Origin: Nitrososphaera sp.
GTDB taxonomy: Archaea > Thermoproteota > Nitrososphaeria > Nitrososphaerales > Nitrososphaeraceae
Assembly (NCBI GenBank): GCA_039938515.1
Contig: JBDUUL010000015.1
Coordinates: 124,001-188,000 of the forward strand
Direction: 5' to 3'
DNA: 64,000 nucleotides
Positions 23,338 to 28,985 of the stretch are shown here, in pieces. The notes under the pieces were generated by a model. It saw only the letters and a program-made list of their open reading frames with translations. It was not told the DNA's origin and searched no databases. Numbering within the stretch: position 1 is the stretch's first letter; each line of letters opens with the position of its first letter. The position numbers and the translations under genes are program-made.

Positions 23338-23742
23338 TTGCAGTATGGTATACAAATCTGTATAGCTGCAAGCGACACACCCGGATCTAATTCTGATGCA
23401 CTATTACACGCCATTATTGCAAAATCTACATTTACGCCCAAGCAAATCGCCATAATCTCCAAACGTCTGTCCGGTGGCGGCCGGATGCCCCGCATGACTT
23501 CGGGCGCATATTACAGGCAGGTCGGCCAGTGCAGGGAAAAGACAATTGCCGTAATGTACAGCCTTGTCCTGCTCGAGCTAATGGGAGCAGTCGATCAGGG
23601 AACGGCCGAGGCGCTGTCACGCATTGGTGACCAGTTGCGCGTGATATTTGCCCCGGAAAACCGTGATGTTGTGATGCAATCACGCGCTGAGGATGTGATA
23701 TCCGCGATAGACCGCGTGATACAAAGAGTATGCAAGGTGTGA
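23338..23742 (+). CDS. Conserved archaeal protein of unknown function (HTH-like)
   Basis: 134 residues from a TTG. A helical protein with T-P-K-Q-I-A-I-I-S-K-R-L, S-G-A-Y-Y-R-Q-V-G-Q-C-R and V-M-Y-S-L-V-L-L-E-L, a pattern I associate with a small protein family recurrent in ammonia-oxidising archaea, possibly a DNA-binding helix-turn-helix. The first 20 residues are poor, so the true start may be further in. The last third of the gene already carries the GTGAY motif of the array. It is divergent from GGGP synthase and upstream of the membrane winged-helix gene. Confidence 0.6.
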   Translation: MQYGIQICIAASDTPGSNSDALLHAIIAKSTFTPKQIAIISKRLSGGGRMPRMTSGAYYRQVGQCREKTIAVMYSLVLLELMGAVDQGTAEALSRIGDQLRVIFAPENRDVVMQSRAEDVISAIDRVIQRVCKV

Positions 23743-24280
23743 ACAACGTTGCAGCAGTATCAATATATCACGGTTTTTGAGGGAAATACCGTGATGTTCT
23801 GTGATTGATGTGACATCTGTTGTGACGTTTGTGACGAGTGATACCGTGATGTCCTGCATACTTGCCTTCCTGGCGGGCCTTGGCAGCGTGATGCTCTACA
23901 ATAAAGTCACGGCATCACGCGCGTCACGCGTGGAGCCGGTGAACCAGGAGCCGGATATCACGCCTCCCGAGCCCATGCCGCGTGAGCATCACGCGGGTGA
24001 CGCCGTGATAGAGGCCGTGGTGGCCGAATACACTCGGCGATTGCAGGAGTATGACAAGGTAATAGCTGACCTGCGTGTCAGGCTTGACATTATGGAAGTC
24101 CAAGCATCACGCGTTCGGCCGCAACATCACAGGGTTGTCGAGGAAAACGAGCAAATGTCACAGGCAATAATCACGCCGCGTGATATATCACAGCCACATC
24201 ACGCGCCATCACGGCAAGTCGCGCCTCACGCGTCACGCGTGACAGAGCCTGTCGCCGTCACGCAGCACGCTAGTGTGATT
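23617..24280. repeat. Dense GTGAY/RTCAC motif array near the origin
   Basis: By hand I count about 36 copies of GTGAT/GTGAC or their complements in about 660 bases, against about 2.6 expected by chance; at least 24 extend to CGTGA or TCACG. Copies on the left (about 23627-23891) are mostly GTGAY, those on the right (about 23906-24262) mostly RTCAC, so the polarity switches near 23900. A perfect palindrome, TCACGCGTGA, occurs near 24233-24242. The copies fall in all three codon phases (TCA-CGC, ATC-ACG, CAT-CAC), so selection seems to act on the DNA and not on the protein. Confidence 0.75.
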
Positions 24281-24586
24281 TCCGCAAATGACGATGCTGT
24301 TGAGAACCGCAACGGCACTACCGACTATATCCTAAAGCTCCTCGCCGAACGAAAGAGGTCGTCTAGGGAAGTGCAGCAGGCCATCGGCAGAAGCCGCGAG
24401 CATACCTCAAGGCTTATGAAAAGGCTCAATGACGCCGGCCTAGTTGTCCGGGACAACTCGTCCAAGCCGTTCAGTTACGCAATAACTGCTCTGGGCCAGG
24501 CTAGACTTCGGGAGAAAGGCGCGGCTGTACCTGCTGGGCAGGAGAGCCCACCCGATAGGTCCATTCCTTTCCCTGGCGGACCCTAG
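23801..24586 (+). CDS. Membrane-anchored winged-helix protein encoded next to oriC
   Basis: 261 residues from a GTG. Residues about 16-33 form one membrane helix (V-M-S-C-I-L-A-F-L-A-G-L-G-S-V-M-L-Y), then a charged helical stretch with coiled-coil character around 70-100 (Y-T-R-R-L-Q-E-Y-D-K-V-I-A-D-L-R-V-R-L), a low-complexity His/Ser/Arg/Pro linker to about 160, and a C-terminal winged helix at about 170-235 (Y-I-L-K-L-L-A-E-R-K-R-S-S-R-E-V-Q-Q-A-I-G-R-S). The linker is the part whose codons carry the motif array. The predicted topology puts the DNA-binding domain in the cytosol, tethered to the membrane. No exact family recognised. Confidence 0.65.
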   Translation: MIDVTSVVTFVTSDTVMSCILAFLAGLGSVMLYNKVTASRASRVEPVNQEPDITPPEPMPREHHAGDAVIEAVVAEYTRRLQEYDKVIADLRVRLDIMEVQASRVRPQHHRVVEENEQMSQAIITPRDISQPHHAPSRQVAPHASRVTEPVAVTQHASVISANDDAVENRNGTTDYILKLLAERKRSSREVQQAIGRSREHTSRLMKRLNDAGLVVRDNSSKPFSYAITALGQARLREKGAAVPAGQESPPDRSIPFPGGP

Positions 24587-24833
24587 CAAGCCTGCCGCGT
24601 TCTGAGTATCGAGAGAGGTACGTGGAGATGATGCTGAGCTTGATGGGCTCGTTATAGTGATCTTCGTACATTTCAAGCACGTCGCTTGAGGTAAACTTTG
24701 CAAAGGGGAACTTGGTCTGCACGATGTTCCATATTCTGTCCCCTACCGAGGCTGCAGGTCGCTGCTCGCTTGCGTCAGCCAAACCTGCGTGCACACGCGG
24801 AGAATCGTCTGACTCGATGTTGAGAAGGTCCAT
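24501..24833 (-). CDS. Winged-helix protein at the origin, start codon unclear
   Basis: 110 residues from ATG. The core is a winged helix: D-R-I-W-N-I-V-Q-T-K-F-P-F-A-K-F-T-S-S-D-V-L, then I-K-L-S-I-I-S-T-Y-L-S-R-Y and the wing G-R-L-A-R-V-R-Q-G-K-E-W-T-Y-R-V. The same frame stays open up to the stop at 24954-24956 and encodes a protein-like peptide (R-I-K-I-E-L-E-D-A-E-G-S-K-Y-N-L-S-L-E-G) that has no ATG, GTG or TTG. The true protein is thus probably about 38 residues longer, begun at an unusual codon, or its start was lost. The 3' end overlaps the convergent gene by 86 bases. Confidence 0.65.
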   Translation of the reverse strand: MDLLNIESDDSPRVHAGLADASEQRPAASVGDRIWNIVQTKFPFAKFTSSDVLEMYEDHYNEPIKLSIISTYLSRYSERGRLARVRQGKEWTYRVGSPAQQVQPRLSPEV

Positions 24834-25130
24834 GAACTCTATTATCTTGACAATCTTGTCCTTGGAGACGTTTCCCTCAAGGGACAGGTTGTACTTGCTG
24901 CCTTCTGCATCCTCGAGTTCTATCTTTATCCTTCTCTTACCAGCGCTCGTTTGCTACCCCACCCCGGAACGTATCCTAGGCTGTTAACATGATAACACTT
25001 AACAGAGCTGCTGCAAAACCCGATAACACTATGCTCAGCTTGTGTTAACAATGCTTGAGAGGATAGCTTTTGTCTACGATGTTTGTTGATTGTTAACTAG
25101 TATCTTTGTAGAATCGCGGCCAGAAGACGC

Positions 25131-25151
25131 CTCCAGTGGAAATGGAGGGGT
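25131..25151 (+). promoter_or_regulatory. Origin recognition box 1
   Basis: CTCCAGTGGAAATGGAGGGG followed by T. It matches the archaeal ORB consensus: the TCCAGTGGAAA core recognised by the Cdc6/Orc1 winged helix, then the G-rich run contacted by the AAA+ domain. It lies about 300 bases upstream of the initiator gene. Confidence 0.9.
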
Positions 25152-25191
25152 TGCCGGCTGGCCATTAACACTGTTAACGGTGATCTTCACG

Positions 25192-25212
25192 CTCCACTGG
25201 AAATAAAGGGGT
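25192..25212 (+). promoter_or_regulatory. Origin recognition box 2
   Basis: CTCCACTGGAAATAAAGGGG followed by T. Same orientation as box 1, with 61 bases from start to start. The dyad core TCCACTGGAAA and the G-string AAAGGGGT are both intact. Confidence 0.9.
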
Positions 25213-25449
25213 CCTTTTCAGGCAGTTTGACGGACCAACGATCGCGCCCTGTTAACATCACCCAGACTGGCTTGGCCGCCACCCCTAGCTTTCCTCTGCA
25301 ATAGTCCTCCTCAAGAACCCCCTTTAGAATATAGAATAGAATAGAGTTACCGGTGAGTACTAGTTGATTAGGGGGTTTAAATGGGCCGTGTTAACATGGG
25401 CGTGGAGATACGTTAACAAACTCGTGTTCTCGAAAGGAAAGCAAGGGGT

Positions 25450-26697
25450 GTGGGCATGGACTCTGATATTGACAACATCTTTACCAAGGCGGCCAGCGGC
25501 AGGTCCCTTGTAAAGAACCGGCAGACGCTTACGATCGATTATGTACCGGAGAACCTACCTTTCCGCGACGAGGAAAGCAGGACCCTTGCGCAGGTCCTAT
25601 CCAGCCTGTTCAAAGGGGCCAGGCCTTCAAACCTCCTGCTCTTTGGTAAGCCGGGGACAGGTAAGACCGCGGTCGTAAAGAATGTCATTGACAGGCTCCA
25701 GAAAAAGGCCCGCGAGCTTGGCGTTCATGTGACCGTAGCGGTTGTTAATGCCAAACTTGCCAACAGCGCTTACAAGGTCCTCTTTGAAATAGCGGAGGAA
25801 ATCGGCATCAATAGCGAAGCCAGCAGGGACAAGAAAATCGTGCATTTCACCGGCCTGTCGATGGGCGAGGCGACCGACAGGATACTCCAGTTCATACAAA
25901 AGAAAAAACTGCACCTGATACTTGTAATTGACGAAATCGACTCGCTTGTCGACAAGAACGGCGACGATATCCTATACAGCCTGACGCGGGCAAACCAGCA
26001 AATGATGTCCTCTGGCGGCGCTTTTGTAACGCTCGTCGGAATTTCAAACAGCCTTGACTTCAAGGACAAACTGGACCCTCGCGTCAGGAGCAGCCTGAGC
26101 GAGGAGGAGACCGTTTTCAACCCGTATACCGTGCAGCAGCTCCGCGAAATACTGCACGAGCGCGCAAAACTGGCCTTCAACGAAGGCGGCGTTTCAGAAG
26201 GAGCAATAAACCTGTGCGCCGCCGTGGCAGGCAGGGAGCATGGCGATGCGCGAAAGGCGATTGACCTTCTGCGGGTCGCCTCGGAGCTGGCCGAGCGAGA
26301 GGGGGCAGGCAAGGTGGACGAGCATCACGTAAGGCAGGCCCAAGAAAAGATAGAGAAGGACACGAGCTATGAAATCTTGAAAAACGCAACAACGCACACC
26401 AAGTATGTAGTCGTTGCAATCACAAAGTCAAAGAACGGAAACACGGGCGACGTTTATGAGATCTATTCTTCAATCTGCAGGCAGGTGGAGCAGGAGCCGC
26501 TGACGCAGCGCCGGCTTACGCAAATAATAAGCGAGCTTGACCAGCTCGGGCTTGTGGCGACAGACATTGTTAGCCAGGGCAGGTACGGCCGGTCGCAAAA
26601 GATCAAGGTGACGATACCGCTTTCGACAATACGCGAAGCGATAGCGGACGATGCCGCGCTCCTGTCAATCTTGAATTCGGATTCAAAAAACAGCTAG
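25450..26697 (+). CDS. cdc6: Cdc6/Orc1 replication initiator
   Basis: 415 residues from GTG (ATG two codons later is possible). AAA+ domain with Walker A G-K-P-G-T-G-K-T at residues 66-73, Walker B L-V-I-D-E-I-D near 158-164, sensor 1 region V-G-I-S-N-S-L and sensor 2 around G-D-A-R-K-A-I-D-L-L. The C-terminal winged helix (residues about 320-400) carries Y-E-I-Y-S-S-I-C-R and R-R-L-T-Q-I-I-S-E-L. It binds the ORBs just upstream and recruits MCM. The gene probably autoregulates through sites in the origin. No defect seen. Confidence 0.96.
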   Translation: MGMDSDIDNIFTKAASGRSLVKNRQTLTIDYVPENLPFRDEESRTLAQVLSSLFKGARPSNLLLFGKPGTGKTAVVKNVIDRLQKKARELGVHVTVAVVNAKLANSAYKVLFEIAEEIGINSEASRDKKIVHFTGLSMGEATDRILQFIQKKKLHLILVIDEIDSLVDKNGDDILYSLTRANQQMMSSGGAFVTLVGISNSLDFKDKLDPRVRSSLSEEETVFNPYTVQQLREILHERAKLAFNEGGVSEGAINLCAAVAGREHGDARKAIDLLRVASELAEREGAGKVDEHHVRQAQEKIEKDTSYEILKNATTHTKYVVVAITKSKNGNTGDVYEIYSSICRQVEQEPLTQRRLTQIISELDQLGLVATDIVSQGRYGRSQKIKVTIPLSTIREAIADDAALLSILNSDSKNS

Positions 26698-27080
26698 GAC
26701 CGCTTTTCCGGCTTTGACCATTTCCTCATCCACTCCAGCAATCCTACAAGAGACTCTACCAGTTCCTGGCCCTTGGGAGTAAGGTTATACTCCACGCGCG
26801 GTGGAATCTCGCTGTAAGCCTTTCTTTCAAGAACACCGCCCCTTTCAAGTTCCTTGAGCCTTACGGCAAGCGTCTTGCTGCTAATGCCCCTCAGTGCCTG
26901 CCGAAACTGCTTGTACCTGACGGGATGCGTGGTACAGCACAGAGGAATGAGTATCTCTAGAGTTCCGCGGCTTGTCATTAATTTTCTCAGCCGCGCGGTT
27001 TCACTCATAAGCGCGGCAGGGCTGTAACCCTCAAAGTCGCATCCCTGGTGCATTGGCAGTCCGTCTTTCTTGGTTTCCAT
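26694..27080 (-). CDS. HxlR/MarR-type winged-helix regulator of the arsenic operon
   Basis: 128 residues. HxlR family pattern: R-G-T-L-E-I-L-I-P-L, F-R-Q-A-L-R-G-I-S-S-K-T-L-A-V-R-L-K-E-L-E and the wing R-V-E-Y-N-L-T-P-K-G. Cys in the N-terminus (H-Q-G-C-D) and a Cys pair (L-C-C-T-T) could act in sensing arsenite or redox state, as in other HxlR proteins, but this is inference. It is divergent from the arsM-arsC-aquaporin genes with 63 bases between the starts and is the likely regulator. Its stop overlaps the cdc6 end. Confidence 0.8.
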   Translation of the reverse strand: METKKDGLPMHQGCDFEGYSPAALMSETARLRKLMTSRGTLEILIPLCCTTHPVRYKQFRQALRGISSKTLAVRLKELERGGVLERKAYSEIPPRVEYNLTPKGQELVESLVGLLEWMRKWSKPEKRS

Positions 27081-27112
27081 AACTACACCAACTGTAGGCG
27101 AGTCGCCCTGAC

Positions 27113-27138
27113 AACTTAAATAGTTTCCCTAGTAAACT
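27113..27138 (+). promoter_or_regulatory. arsM promoter with operator-like inverted repeat
   Basis: TATA-like AACTTAAATA at 27113-27122 lies about 27 bases before the GTG start of arsM, suiting a nearly leaderless transcript. Immediately after it AGTTT (27122-27126) and AAACT (27134-27138) form an inverted repeat with a 7-base spacer covering the start-site region, the right place for a repressor such as the divergent HxlR protein. Confidence 0.5.
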
Positions 27139-27143
27139 GCTTT

Positions 27144-27902
27144 GTGGAAGAGTCAATCAAAAGCGAGGTAAAGAAGCATTATGCCAGGATCGCTTTAACA
27201 GGCAATTCCGATTGTTGCTGCATGCCCTGTGACTGTGACCCGTCCACCTCGGTGATGGGTGCTGCCGAAAAGATCGGCTACGATTCCGCCGATTTAAAAT
27301 CGATACCCGAGGGCTCGGTACTTGGCGTTGGATGCGGAGCGCCTCTGAAATTTGCAGAGATTGAGAAAGGCGAGACAGTCGTTGACCTGGGCTCCGGTGC
27401 AGGGATCGATGTTTTCTTGTCGGCAAACGAGGTGGGAGAAAATGGAAAGGTAATTGGAATAGACATGACTGAGGAAATGCTTGATAGGGCCAGAAGGAAC
27501 GCGCTGGAGAACAATTATTCAAACGTGGAATTTAGAAAAGGGGAAATAGAGTCTGACATCCCGGTTGAAAGCAGCACGGTCGATCTGGTTATCAGCAACT
27601 GTGTTATCAACCTGACAACCGACAAGGCTGCAGCGTTCAAACACGTTCACAGGATTCTGAAGCCCGGAGGCAGAATGATAATTTCCGACCTTGTAACCGA
27701 CCGAGAGGTAAGTTCCGCATCAGTCAGTGAATCGAGATGGTGCGGTTGCATCGACGGCGCACTGACTAGAGAAAACTATCTTGAGAGCATCCGGAAAGCA
27801 GGATTTGGCATTGTTGAGGTGCTTGAAGAGAGACCGTATGTCAGTGAACAGAGCGACGGTAGAAACATGACAAGCGTAATAGTCAAAGCTGTAAAATCAT
27901 GA
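27144..27902 (+). CDS. arsM: Arsenite S-adenosylmethionine methyltransferase
   Basis: 252 residues from GTG. Class I methyltransferase: SAM motif V-V-D-L-G-S-G-A-G-I-D at residues 79-89 and the acidic I-G-I-D-M-T loop. The three arsenite-binding Cys of ArsM are all present: C64 in G-V-G-C-G-A-P, C153 in S-N-C-V-I-N-L and C202 in W-C-G-C-I-D-G. A Cys-rich N-terminal patch (C-C-C-M-P-C-D-C) is also typical. It methylates As(III) to volatile or extrudable species in the cytosol. First gene of an operon with arsC (four-base overlap) and a MIP channel. Confidence 0.93.
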   Translation: MEESIKSEVKKHYARIALTGNSDCCCMPCDCDPSTSVMGAAEKIGYDSADLKSIPEGSVLGVGCGAPLKFAEIEKGETVVDLGSGAGIDVFLSANEVGENGKVIGIDMTEEMLDRARRNALENNYSNVEFRKGEIESDIPVESSTVDLVISNCVINLTTDKAAAFKHVHRILKPGGRMIISDLVTDREVSSASVSESRWCGCIDGALTRENYLESIRKAGFGIVEVLEERPYVSEQSDGRNMTSVIVKAVKS

Positions 27903-28330
27903 AGCCTGAAACGAGTCCGCCACAGACTGAGCGAACAATTCTATTCGTGTGCGTTGAAAATGCCGGAAGGAGCCAGATGGCTGAAGGCTTTTTCAATGCC
28001 AGGTATGCCCCGAAAGGGTACAGGGCAATAAGCGCAGGGACAAGGCCCGCGTCACAGATTAACCCCGCTGCGATTCAGGCAATGAAGGAAGTCGGCATCG
28101 ACATCAGCAGGCAAAAATCAAAGACTATTTCTGGCGAGATGATTAACAAATCCTCAAAGGCAGTCAACATGGGATGCATGGACAAAGACGAGTGCCCGAT
28201 GCTTTTTGTCAGCAACATTGTCGACTGGCAAATTGAGGACCCAAAGGGTAAGCCCATCGAAAAGGTCCGTGAGATAAGAGACGAGATAGAAAAAAGAGTA
28301 AGGGAAATTGCAGAAAGCCTCGCCAGCTAG
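27899..28330 (+). CDS. arsC: Arsenate reductase, low-molecular-weight phosphatase type
   Basis: 143 residues. P-loop C18-V-E-N-A-G-R24-S (CX5R) near the N-terminus, the later Cys pair region N-M-G-C-M-D-K-D-E-C-P and the general-acid Asp in E-D-P-K-G-K-P are those of thioredoxin-coupled ArsC. It reduces arsenate to arsenite in the cytosol. Its ATG overlaps the arsM stop and its 3' end overlaps the aquaporin start by 23 bases, so expression is tightly coupled. Confidence 0.92.
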   Translation: MKPETSPPQTERTILFVCVENAGRSQMAEGFFNARYAPKGYRAISAGTRPASQINPAAIQAMKEVGIDISRQKSKTISGEMINKSSKAVNMGCMDKDECPMLFVSNIVDWQIEDPKGKPIEKVREIRDEIEKRVREIAESLAS

Positions 28331-28985
28331 ATTTTCAATCGCGCAAAAAAGGTTCATTGCCGAAGTCATTGGCACTTTTATCGTAGTGGTGCTTGCGACC
28401 GGCTCAGTGGTCCTGGATGCAAAGGCAGGCGGCACGCTGGGCCTTCCTTTCGTAGCGATTGCCCCGCTTGTCGGCGTTGCAGTCGGAGTCTACCTGTTTG
28501 GAAAAATTTCAATGGCGCACTTTAACCCTGCAGTATCGCTTGCGTTTTTGATAAGCAGGCACATTACAAAGCGGCAGCTCGTCTATTATCTTGCCGCGGA
28601 AATCATTGGCGCCCTGCTGGCAAGCCTGTTTGTCAAGTCAGTAATCGGAACGGAGGCAGACCTCGGAGCAAACGCTCCCAACTATTCGTTTCCGCTGCCG
28701 GTGATTTTCGGGATCGAGGTGCTGGCTTCAGCGTTTCTCATGACCATGATATTCATTGTTGTATATACAAAGGGCCTGAGGGGATTCGGAGGGATTGCGA
28801 TCGGATGCGTTGTCGCGCTGGACATCTTTTTCCTTGCCTTTATTTCAGGCGCCTCGATGAACCCGGCGAGATCGCTTGCCCCGGCGCTTCTTTCAGGAGC
28901 CCTATCAAACCTGTGGCTCTACTGGACTGCAACTTTTGTCGGCATGTCAATCGTTGCATTTGCGTTCAGGAAGAAATTTGTCTGA
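28308..28985 (+). CDS. Aquaglyceroporin-type channel, likely arsenite exit (AqpS-like)
   Basis: 225 residues from TTG inside the end of arsC. Six membrane helices and both MIP half-helix motifs: H-F-N-P-A-V-S near residue 72 and S-M-N-P-A-R-S near 186. MIP channels conduct glycerol, water or As(OH)3. Placement after arsC recalls the arsC-aqpS arrangement of some bacteria, where arsenate is reduced and arsenite leaves downhill through the channel. No ArsB or Acr3 pump is in the window, supporting this reading. Substrate is inferred from context. Confidence 0.88.
   Translation: MQKASPARFSIAQKRFIAEVIGTFIVVVLATGSVVLDAKAGGTLGLPFVAIAPLVGVAVGVYLFGKISMAHFNPAVSLAFLISRHITKRQLVYYLAAEIIGALLASLFVKSVIGTEADLGANAPNYSFPLPVIFGIEVLASAFLMTMIFIVVYTKGLRGFGGIAIGCVVALDIFFLAFISGASMNPARSLAPALLSGALSNLWLYWTATFVGMSIVAFAFRKKFV

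Follow-up and report, generated by a model that had tools for sequence, protein, structure and literature searches.

The window, that is, the whole 64,000-nucleotide stretch analysed here, carries a two-gene unit beside a putative replication origin. The first gene of the unit, up134 (23338..23742, + strand), encodes a small helical protein of the GAYYRQV family with five predicted helices, for which we found no match in Pfam, NCBIfam or the PDB. In relatives up134 begins with an ATG right after a conserved promoter-like stretch; at the equivalent position in the window (23338-23400) no in-frame ATG, GTG or TTG was found, and therefore the start is unclear here or the gene is damaged. The second gene (23801..24586, + strand) encodes a 261-aa protein whose short N-terminus precedes a single predicted transmembrane helix (residues 13-42; 23837..23926, + strand), followed by a predicted coiled-coil helix (residues 65-105; 23993..24115, + strand), a disordered linker (residues 106-170; 24116..24310, + strand; pLDDT ~45-50) and a confidently predicted winged-helix domain (residues 171-240; 24311..24520, + strand) that contains the recognition helix (residues 199-211; 24395-24433, + strand; core REHTxR). 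Downstream lie a convergent gene for a second, small winged-helix-like protein (24501..24833, − strand), the 3' end of which overlaps the 23801 gene, an AT-rich and GTTAAC-rich region without assigned strand (24950..25430) that contains two ORB elements (25131-25151 and 25192-25212), and the cdc6/orc1 initiator gene (25450..26697, + strand). We designate this region an origin by analogy with Nitrosocaldus, whose origin had been assigned to the position immediately preceding the ORBs and cdc6, itself by analogy with Nitrosopumilus (PMC5797428); the GC skew, calculated in 4-kb windows over the 64,000 nucleotides, gave no clear origin signal.

Across the 3' end of up134, the intergenic gap and the first two thirds of the 23801 gene we observe an array of 36 GTGAY/RTCAC sites (23616..24279, no strand assigned; consensus ~YGTGAYDT), comprising 19 GTGAY and 17 RTCAC with start positions 23616-24275. 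By location, the upstream ORF (23338-23742) contains 8 of the sites, the gap 2 and the 23801 gene 26, with much of the right half of the array lying in the codons of the disordered linker. The rate over the remainder of the window predicts ~2.0 sites per 664 bases, a Markov model of the surroundings 2.3 (maximum 8 in 500 draws), and a Markov model trained on the array itself 5.6 (maximum 13). These counts agree with the earlier note, made from the sequence alone, which had put the array at about 36 sites in about 660 bases against fewer than 3 expected, with at least 24 CGTGA/TCACG cores (we count 25) and about 850 bases between the array and the first ORB at 25131-25151. Its description of an array written through one gene holds for the 26 sites in the 23801 gene, but two genes and the gap between them carry the whole, and its placement of copies in all three codon phases holds for RTCAC, whereas GTGAY occupies only two phases within the 23801 gene because the third would create an in-frame TGA.

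Next, we compared the array with the rest of the genome, using 464 kb in full (400 kb of stretches plus the window) together with genome-wide pattern searches. Within the 464 kb, GTGAY/RTCAC sites number at most 8 in any other 660-base window. When all 5-mers are ranked by clustering, CGTGA and ATCAC take the first two places, followed closely by GTTAA, the word of the adjacent origin. When the whole genome was searched for three GTGAY sites within a short distance, 19 of the 36 matches were at the array and the remainder were scattered, and in complete genomes of relatives the site-triplet search gave the same single-place pattern, simple repeats aside. No second array or regulon was found by the triplet search, whose next-best hits reach 3-6 sites per 300 bases; isolated regulatory sites in other parts of the genome are possible. 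Since no other comparable cluster was found, the winged-helix protein is without an evident regulon. The genome-wide triplet searches and the 464-kb scan rule out that the motif is common across the genome at the density of the array, and in this comparison, which the earlier note had proposed, the array stands alone as a dense cluster.

We then asked how much of the array follows from the encoded proteins. Shuffling synonymous codons of the 23801 gene gave 11.4 expected sites (sd 2.1) and background codon usage 8.5 (sd 2.2), compared with the 26 observed, a number reached in 0 of 2000 shuffles; for the upstream ORF the corresponding expectations were 3.0 and 2.0, against 8 observed. The control genes cdc6, polD and pcrB had site counts at expectation in the same shuffles, and among relatives 72 of 76 array genes were enriched at p < 0.05. 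Upon closer examination, the conserved TSRD is written TCA-CGT-GAY in 54 of 54 Nitrosopumilaceae loci, which belong to related genomes and hence do not represent 54 independent events. Arginine is encoded by CGT in all 54 (13% in the background) and serine by TCA in all 54 (37% in the background), while the aspartate codon alone varies, between GAT and GAC, which is the freedom that GTGAY permits; these frozen sites lie ~450 bases inside the gene. A repetitive or biased protein sequence that happens to yield the motif would account for the 8-11 sites, above background, that the amino-acid sequence alone gives, but with the shuffles falling short of 26 and the codons frozen across 54 genomes we consider such an accident of coding to have a negligible probability, and the shuffles, together with their control genes, rule out codon or protein bias as the cause of the array. 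In line with the earlier note, both the shuffles and the invariant codons support selection acting on the DNA itself.

Of 201 genomes in the order, we detected a homologue of the array gene in 161, in single copy with few exceptions. The missing cases within the same family are mostly assembly gaps, since two of these genomes also lack pcrB and in others pcrB sits at a contig edge or on a different contig; true gene loss as a natural experiment was rejected. We examined conservation in 80 named ammonia-oxidiser loci from public genomes and found site enrichment at the orthologous locus in nearly all of them, with the enriched loci always adjoining the Cdc6 gene and ORBs wherever the contig extends so far. 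In an unbiased 5-mer scan, in which each locus was compared with its own flanks, GTGAT/ATCAC was the strongest 5-mer by summed score and was among the top five words at 75 of the 80 loci. Most loci have 12-29 sites, typically 12-20, compared with 2-4 expected, and in ammonia oxidisers the array extends over 0.7-0.8 kb and two genes. The sites form two groups in the named loci, a GTGAY-rich one that runs from the last part of the upstream gene into the beginning of the array gene, and an RTCAC-rich one in the linker and winged-helix codons. At one Nitrosocosmicus locus (L099) part of the sites lie further upstream than the first scan window, and a locus of the neighbouring lineage Methylarchaceae (L086) has a weak cluster only. 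The gene block polD-pcrB-up134-wHTH-small wHTH-cdc6 is syntenic in the named loci with enough flank, although by single-sequence search the helical or the small winged-helix gene went undetected in a few of them. Comparing these syntenic loci, we find that site number is maintained while the encoded linker diverges, and the opposite pattern, relatives that keep the protein and lose the motif, was not seen among them, the DNA motif being retained. We found no description of the array or of its protein in the open-access literature.

The orientation of the sites changes along the window array, with 14 GTGAY and 3 RTCAC left of ~23900 and 5 and 14, respectively, to its right (Fisher p = 0.001; permutation p = 0.004), and the switch near 23900 seen by the earlier note is therefore statistically significant. 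The same GTGAY-to-RTCAC switch is common to Nitrososphaera and Nitrosopumilaceae, which would favour a polar signal of the KOPS kind, guiding a DNA translocase or loader. KOPS, the sites read by FtsK, resemble the array in being short asymmetric motifs with local polarity, but the array is a single local cluster and is not distributed genome-wide along the replichores. Furthermore, polarity is lost in sister genera, since RTCAC makes up nearly all sites at Nitrosocosmicus-like loci and GTGAY most of those at Nitrosocaldus-like loci (the "-like" genus labels of some loci were assigned by reading of their relatives). Direction is therefore not essential, a translocase signal is very improbable, and the proposal of the earlier note that polarity marks translocation is not supported, given the arrays of almost one polarity in sister genera.

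Several features suggest which protein reads the sites. The preference extends beyond the GTGAY core to approximately YGTGAYDT, with G disfavoured on the 5' side of the core, C disfavoured on its 3' side and T preferred two bases downstream of it, and these flank preferences agree across four groups of loci that differ in base composition, as expected of one conserved reader. The recognition helix of the 23801 protein hardly varies, all 41 sequences sharing the residues R, E, H, T, R and M, and a hydrophobic helix is present in 108 of 108 members checked, corresponding in the window protein to the predicted membrane helix 13-42. In a Foldseek search the structural neighbours of the winged helix were ArsR/MarR regulators and the archaeal centromere-binding protein AspA, with similar scores; AspA is one among many winged-helix matches, and the likeness is a generic fold match and no proof of function. 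The Pfam families TrmB (25.9 of 35 bits) and HVO_A0261 (20.5 of 25.6 bits) scored below their curated cut-offs for this protein. Family members among L202-L214 that lack an evident membrane helix have altered recognition helices (KAREHVART, TREHVSR, KVREHTART), and several of them keep GTGAY clusters near the promoter.

Upon extending the comparison beyond the order, we observe that further lineages of the phylum have relatives of the same architecture, in which GTGAY clusters occupy the intergenic gap of the two-gene unit, and a weaker cluster accompanies the winged-helix gene through much of the phylum. Both the helical and the winged-helix gene were located in 52 genomes, mostly outside the order, and in 50 of these the two are neighbours with their arrangement unchanged. 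In ammonia oxidisers all neighbours are conserved together with the array, which would allow for another reader, such as a chromatin protein, a DNA methyltransferase, or the protein encoded by the helical or the small winged-helix gene. However, the cluster is kept in L202, L203 and L206, which have no helical gene, and in L134 and L132, near which no small winged-helix gene was detected, three stand-alone helical genes (L217-L219) have no cluster, and a pentamer methylation site would not stay confined to one locus, which makes another reader a rather remote prospect. The available sequences point to a cluster that follows the winged-helix gene, and the most likely reader of the sites is the winged-helix protein itself. 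The suggestion of the earlier note that the protein encoded by the array-bearing gene may bind the array receives indirect support, in that the cluster travels with this gene in lineages lacking the neighbouring genes. In genome G361 (L216:1-4000) a helical gene has 10 GTGAY sites in the 200 bases upstream and no winged-helix gene was detected; a divergent partner may have been missed by the search. Genome G205 is a natural case of cluster loss, as its two genes lie on different contigs (L219, L220), neither with a GTGAY cluster.

The distribution of the unit also bears on replication-initiation control, in which the bound array would regulate Cdc6 loading or firing at the ORBs ~0.9 kb away, or would sequester the new origin at the membrane. 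The distance between array and cdc6 is conserved across ammonia oxidisers and sequestering would likewise use a membrane-anchored protein, but the unit and its cluster persist in some lineages without a cdc6 match within ~4 kb (L132, L138), and we found no link between the motif and Cdc6 binding; we regard this role as improbable. The main rival, and a real one, is an enlarged autoregulatory operator, to which we give a limited probability: the winged-helix protein would use numerous weak sites to repress its own two-gene unit, and the DNA would play no mechanical part. Some deep families have 4-7 sites only, in lineages with fewer sites these lie for the most part at the winged-helix gene's promoter and 5' end, and where a lineage has few sites at the promoter autoregulation is the plainest reading. 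Outside ammonia oxidisers the sites are concentrated in the 100-300 bases that precede the winged-helix gene, many of L202-L214 are family members without an evident membrane helix, promoter-side sites also occur in such members, and the cluster tracks the gene rather than the origin (L132, L138, L127). Against the operator, 36 sites over two genes, the constrained ones ~450 bases into coding sequence, are more than repression needs, a regulator that targets itself alone, with no regulon seen, has little purpose, and the short N-terminus leaves no room for an outside sensor domain.

We therefore weigh the operator against anchoring or partitioning of the origin through the membrane winged-helix protein that the array itself encodes, with likely self-control, a reading that we judge to have about an even chance of being correct. 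Under this origin-anchoring model, the array would be a cluster of YGTGAYDT-core binding sites for the winged-helix protein of 23801-24586, and many copies of this protein, held in the membrane by the modelled helix, would bind many sites ~1 kb from the ORBs. The origin region would then be kept at the membrane as a clustered nucleoprotein patch that may serve origin placement or chromosome sharing at division, and this binding probably also keeps the two-gene unit of helical and membrane winged-helix proteins repressed or in balance. Autoregulation alongside a structural role has been proposed for the sites of AspA and SegB (PMC5120986, PMC12284271). In ammonia oxidisers, the array of 0.7-0.8 kb with frozen sites deep in coding sequence, on the origin side, with a predicted membrane reader and no regulon, favours a structural role, and the centromere-like or origin-organising function suggested in the earlier note is compatible with our results. 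Points against anchoring are that the unit is not always origin-adjacent, that no partner ATPase is encoded next door, that sites elsewhere are promoter-weighted, that some relatives lack the membrane helix, and that the G205 genes are clusterless.

Comparison with known systems indicates partial likenesses. AspA of the Sulfolobus plasmid pNOB8, part of the AspA-ParB-ParA system, is a winged-helix protein that binds upstream of its own gene and covers >200 bp (PMC5120986), and the winged helix of the 23801 protein matches 4rs8 and 5k5q (rmsd 1.5 over 70 columns), with ArsR/MarR proteins scoring alike in Foldseek. However, AspA, encoded on a plasmid ahead of parB and parA, recognises a 23-bp palindrome and has no described membrane anchor, whereas the array is chromosomal, has an asymmetric pentamer core and a predicted membrane helix in its putative reader, and lacks an adjacent parA; no AspA-type parB/parA operon was found at the locus, where the neighbours are up134, the small wHTH gene, pcrB and cdc6, and the ParA-like genes on the contig lie ~76 kb or more from the array. 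SegAB of Sulfolobales is chromosomal, with sites by its own genes and many inside genes (PMC12284271), as in the array, but SegB sites are spread over the chromosome, no segA lies beside the array, and the SegB motif TCTAGASTCTAGA had 0 matches in the window (2 mismatches allowed) and in the genome (1 mismatch). In Bacillus subtilis, an origin-proximal cluster of ram sites is tied to the membrane by the helix-turn-helix protein RacA (PMC6593407), which resembles the array in its position ~0.85 kb from the ORBs, conserved next to cdc6. RacA differs in anchoring through DivIVA, in its use in sporulation and in having ram sites also scattered around the chromosome, while here there is one cluster only and the predicted transmembrane helix is in the same chain; the domain order differs too, being membrane helix, coiled coil and C-terminal winged helix in the 23801 protein and an N-terminal helix-turn-helix in RacA (PMC6593407). 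Finally, bacterial ParABS, with parS near oriC, resembles the locus in having centromere-like sites close to the origin and, not far from them, a gene for a DNA-binding protein, but at the array there is no sign of a ParB-type protein, no adjacent ParA, and the motif is not a parS-like palindrome.

What an archaeal centromere looks like and whether the chromosome has reference points in the cell have been listed as open questions (PMC5120986), and no system is named for ammonia oxidisers where a review of the archaeal cell cycle from 2024 deals with segregation (PMC7617429). In these archaea, which are among the most abundant microbe groups on Earth, the array is a candidate for a place at which the chromosome is held or shared out, and the locus offers a testable candidate with a defined motif, a defined protein and an origin-side position kept across ammonia oxidisers. 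Somewhat short of even confidence, we suggest an undescribed archaeal chromosome-anchoring and segregation system, ancestral to much of the phylum, in which the two-gene unit and the origin-side GTGAY centromere-like array that it would bind form a direct DNA-to-membrane link without ParA/ParB or SegB.

Additional genes were observed around the array and origin. The small winged-helix gene, which in ammonia oxidisers is conserved between the array gene and cdc6, encodes a protein that is conserved near cdc6 far outside this group (L119-L138), and in one Nitrosopumilus locus (L052:10754-10913) a small AbrB/MazE-like ORF lies between it and the array gene. Beside the origin in the window we observe an arsenic-type gene set (26694-28985), comprising genes for an HxlR-like regulator and for arsenite-methyltransferase-like, low-molecular-weight phosphatase/arsenate-reductase-like and aquaporin-like proteins, named from reading of the sequence, with the HxlR match alone coming from a search.
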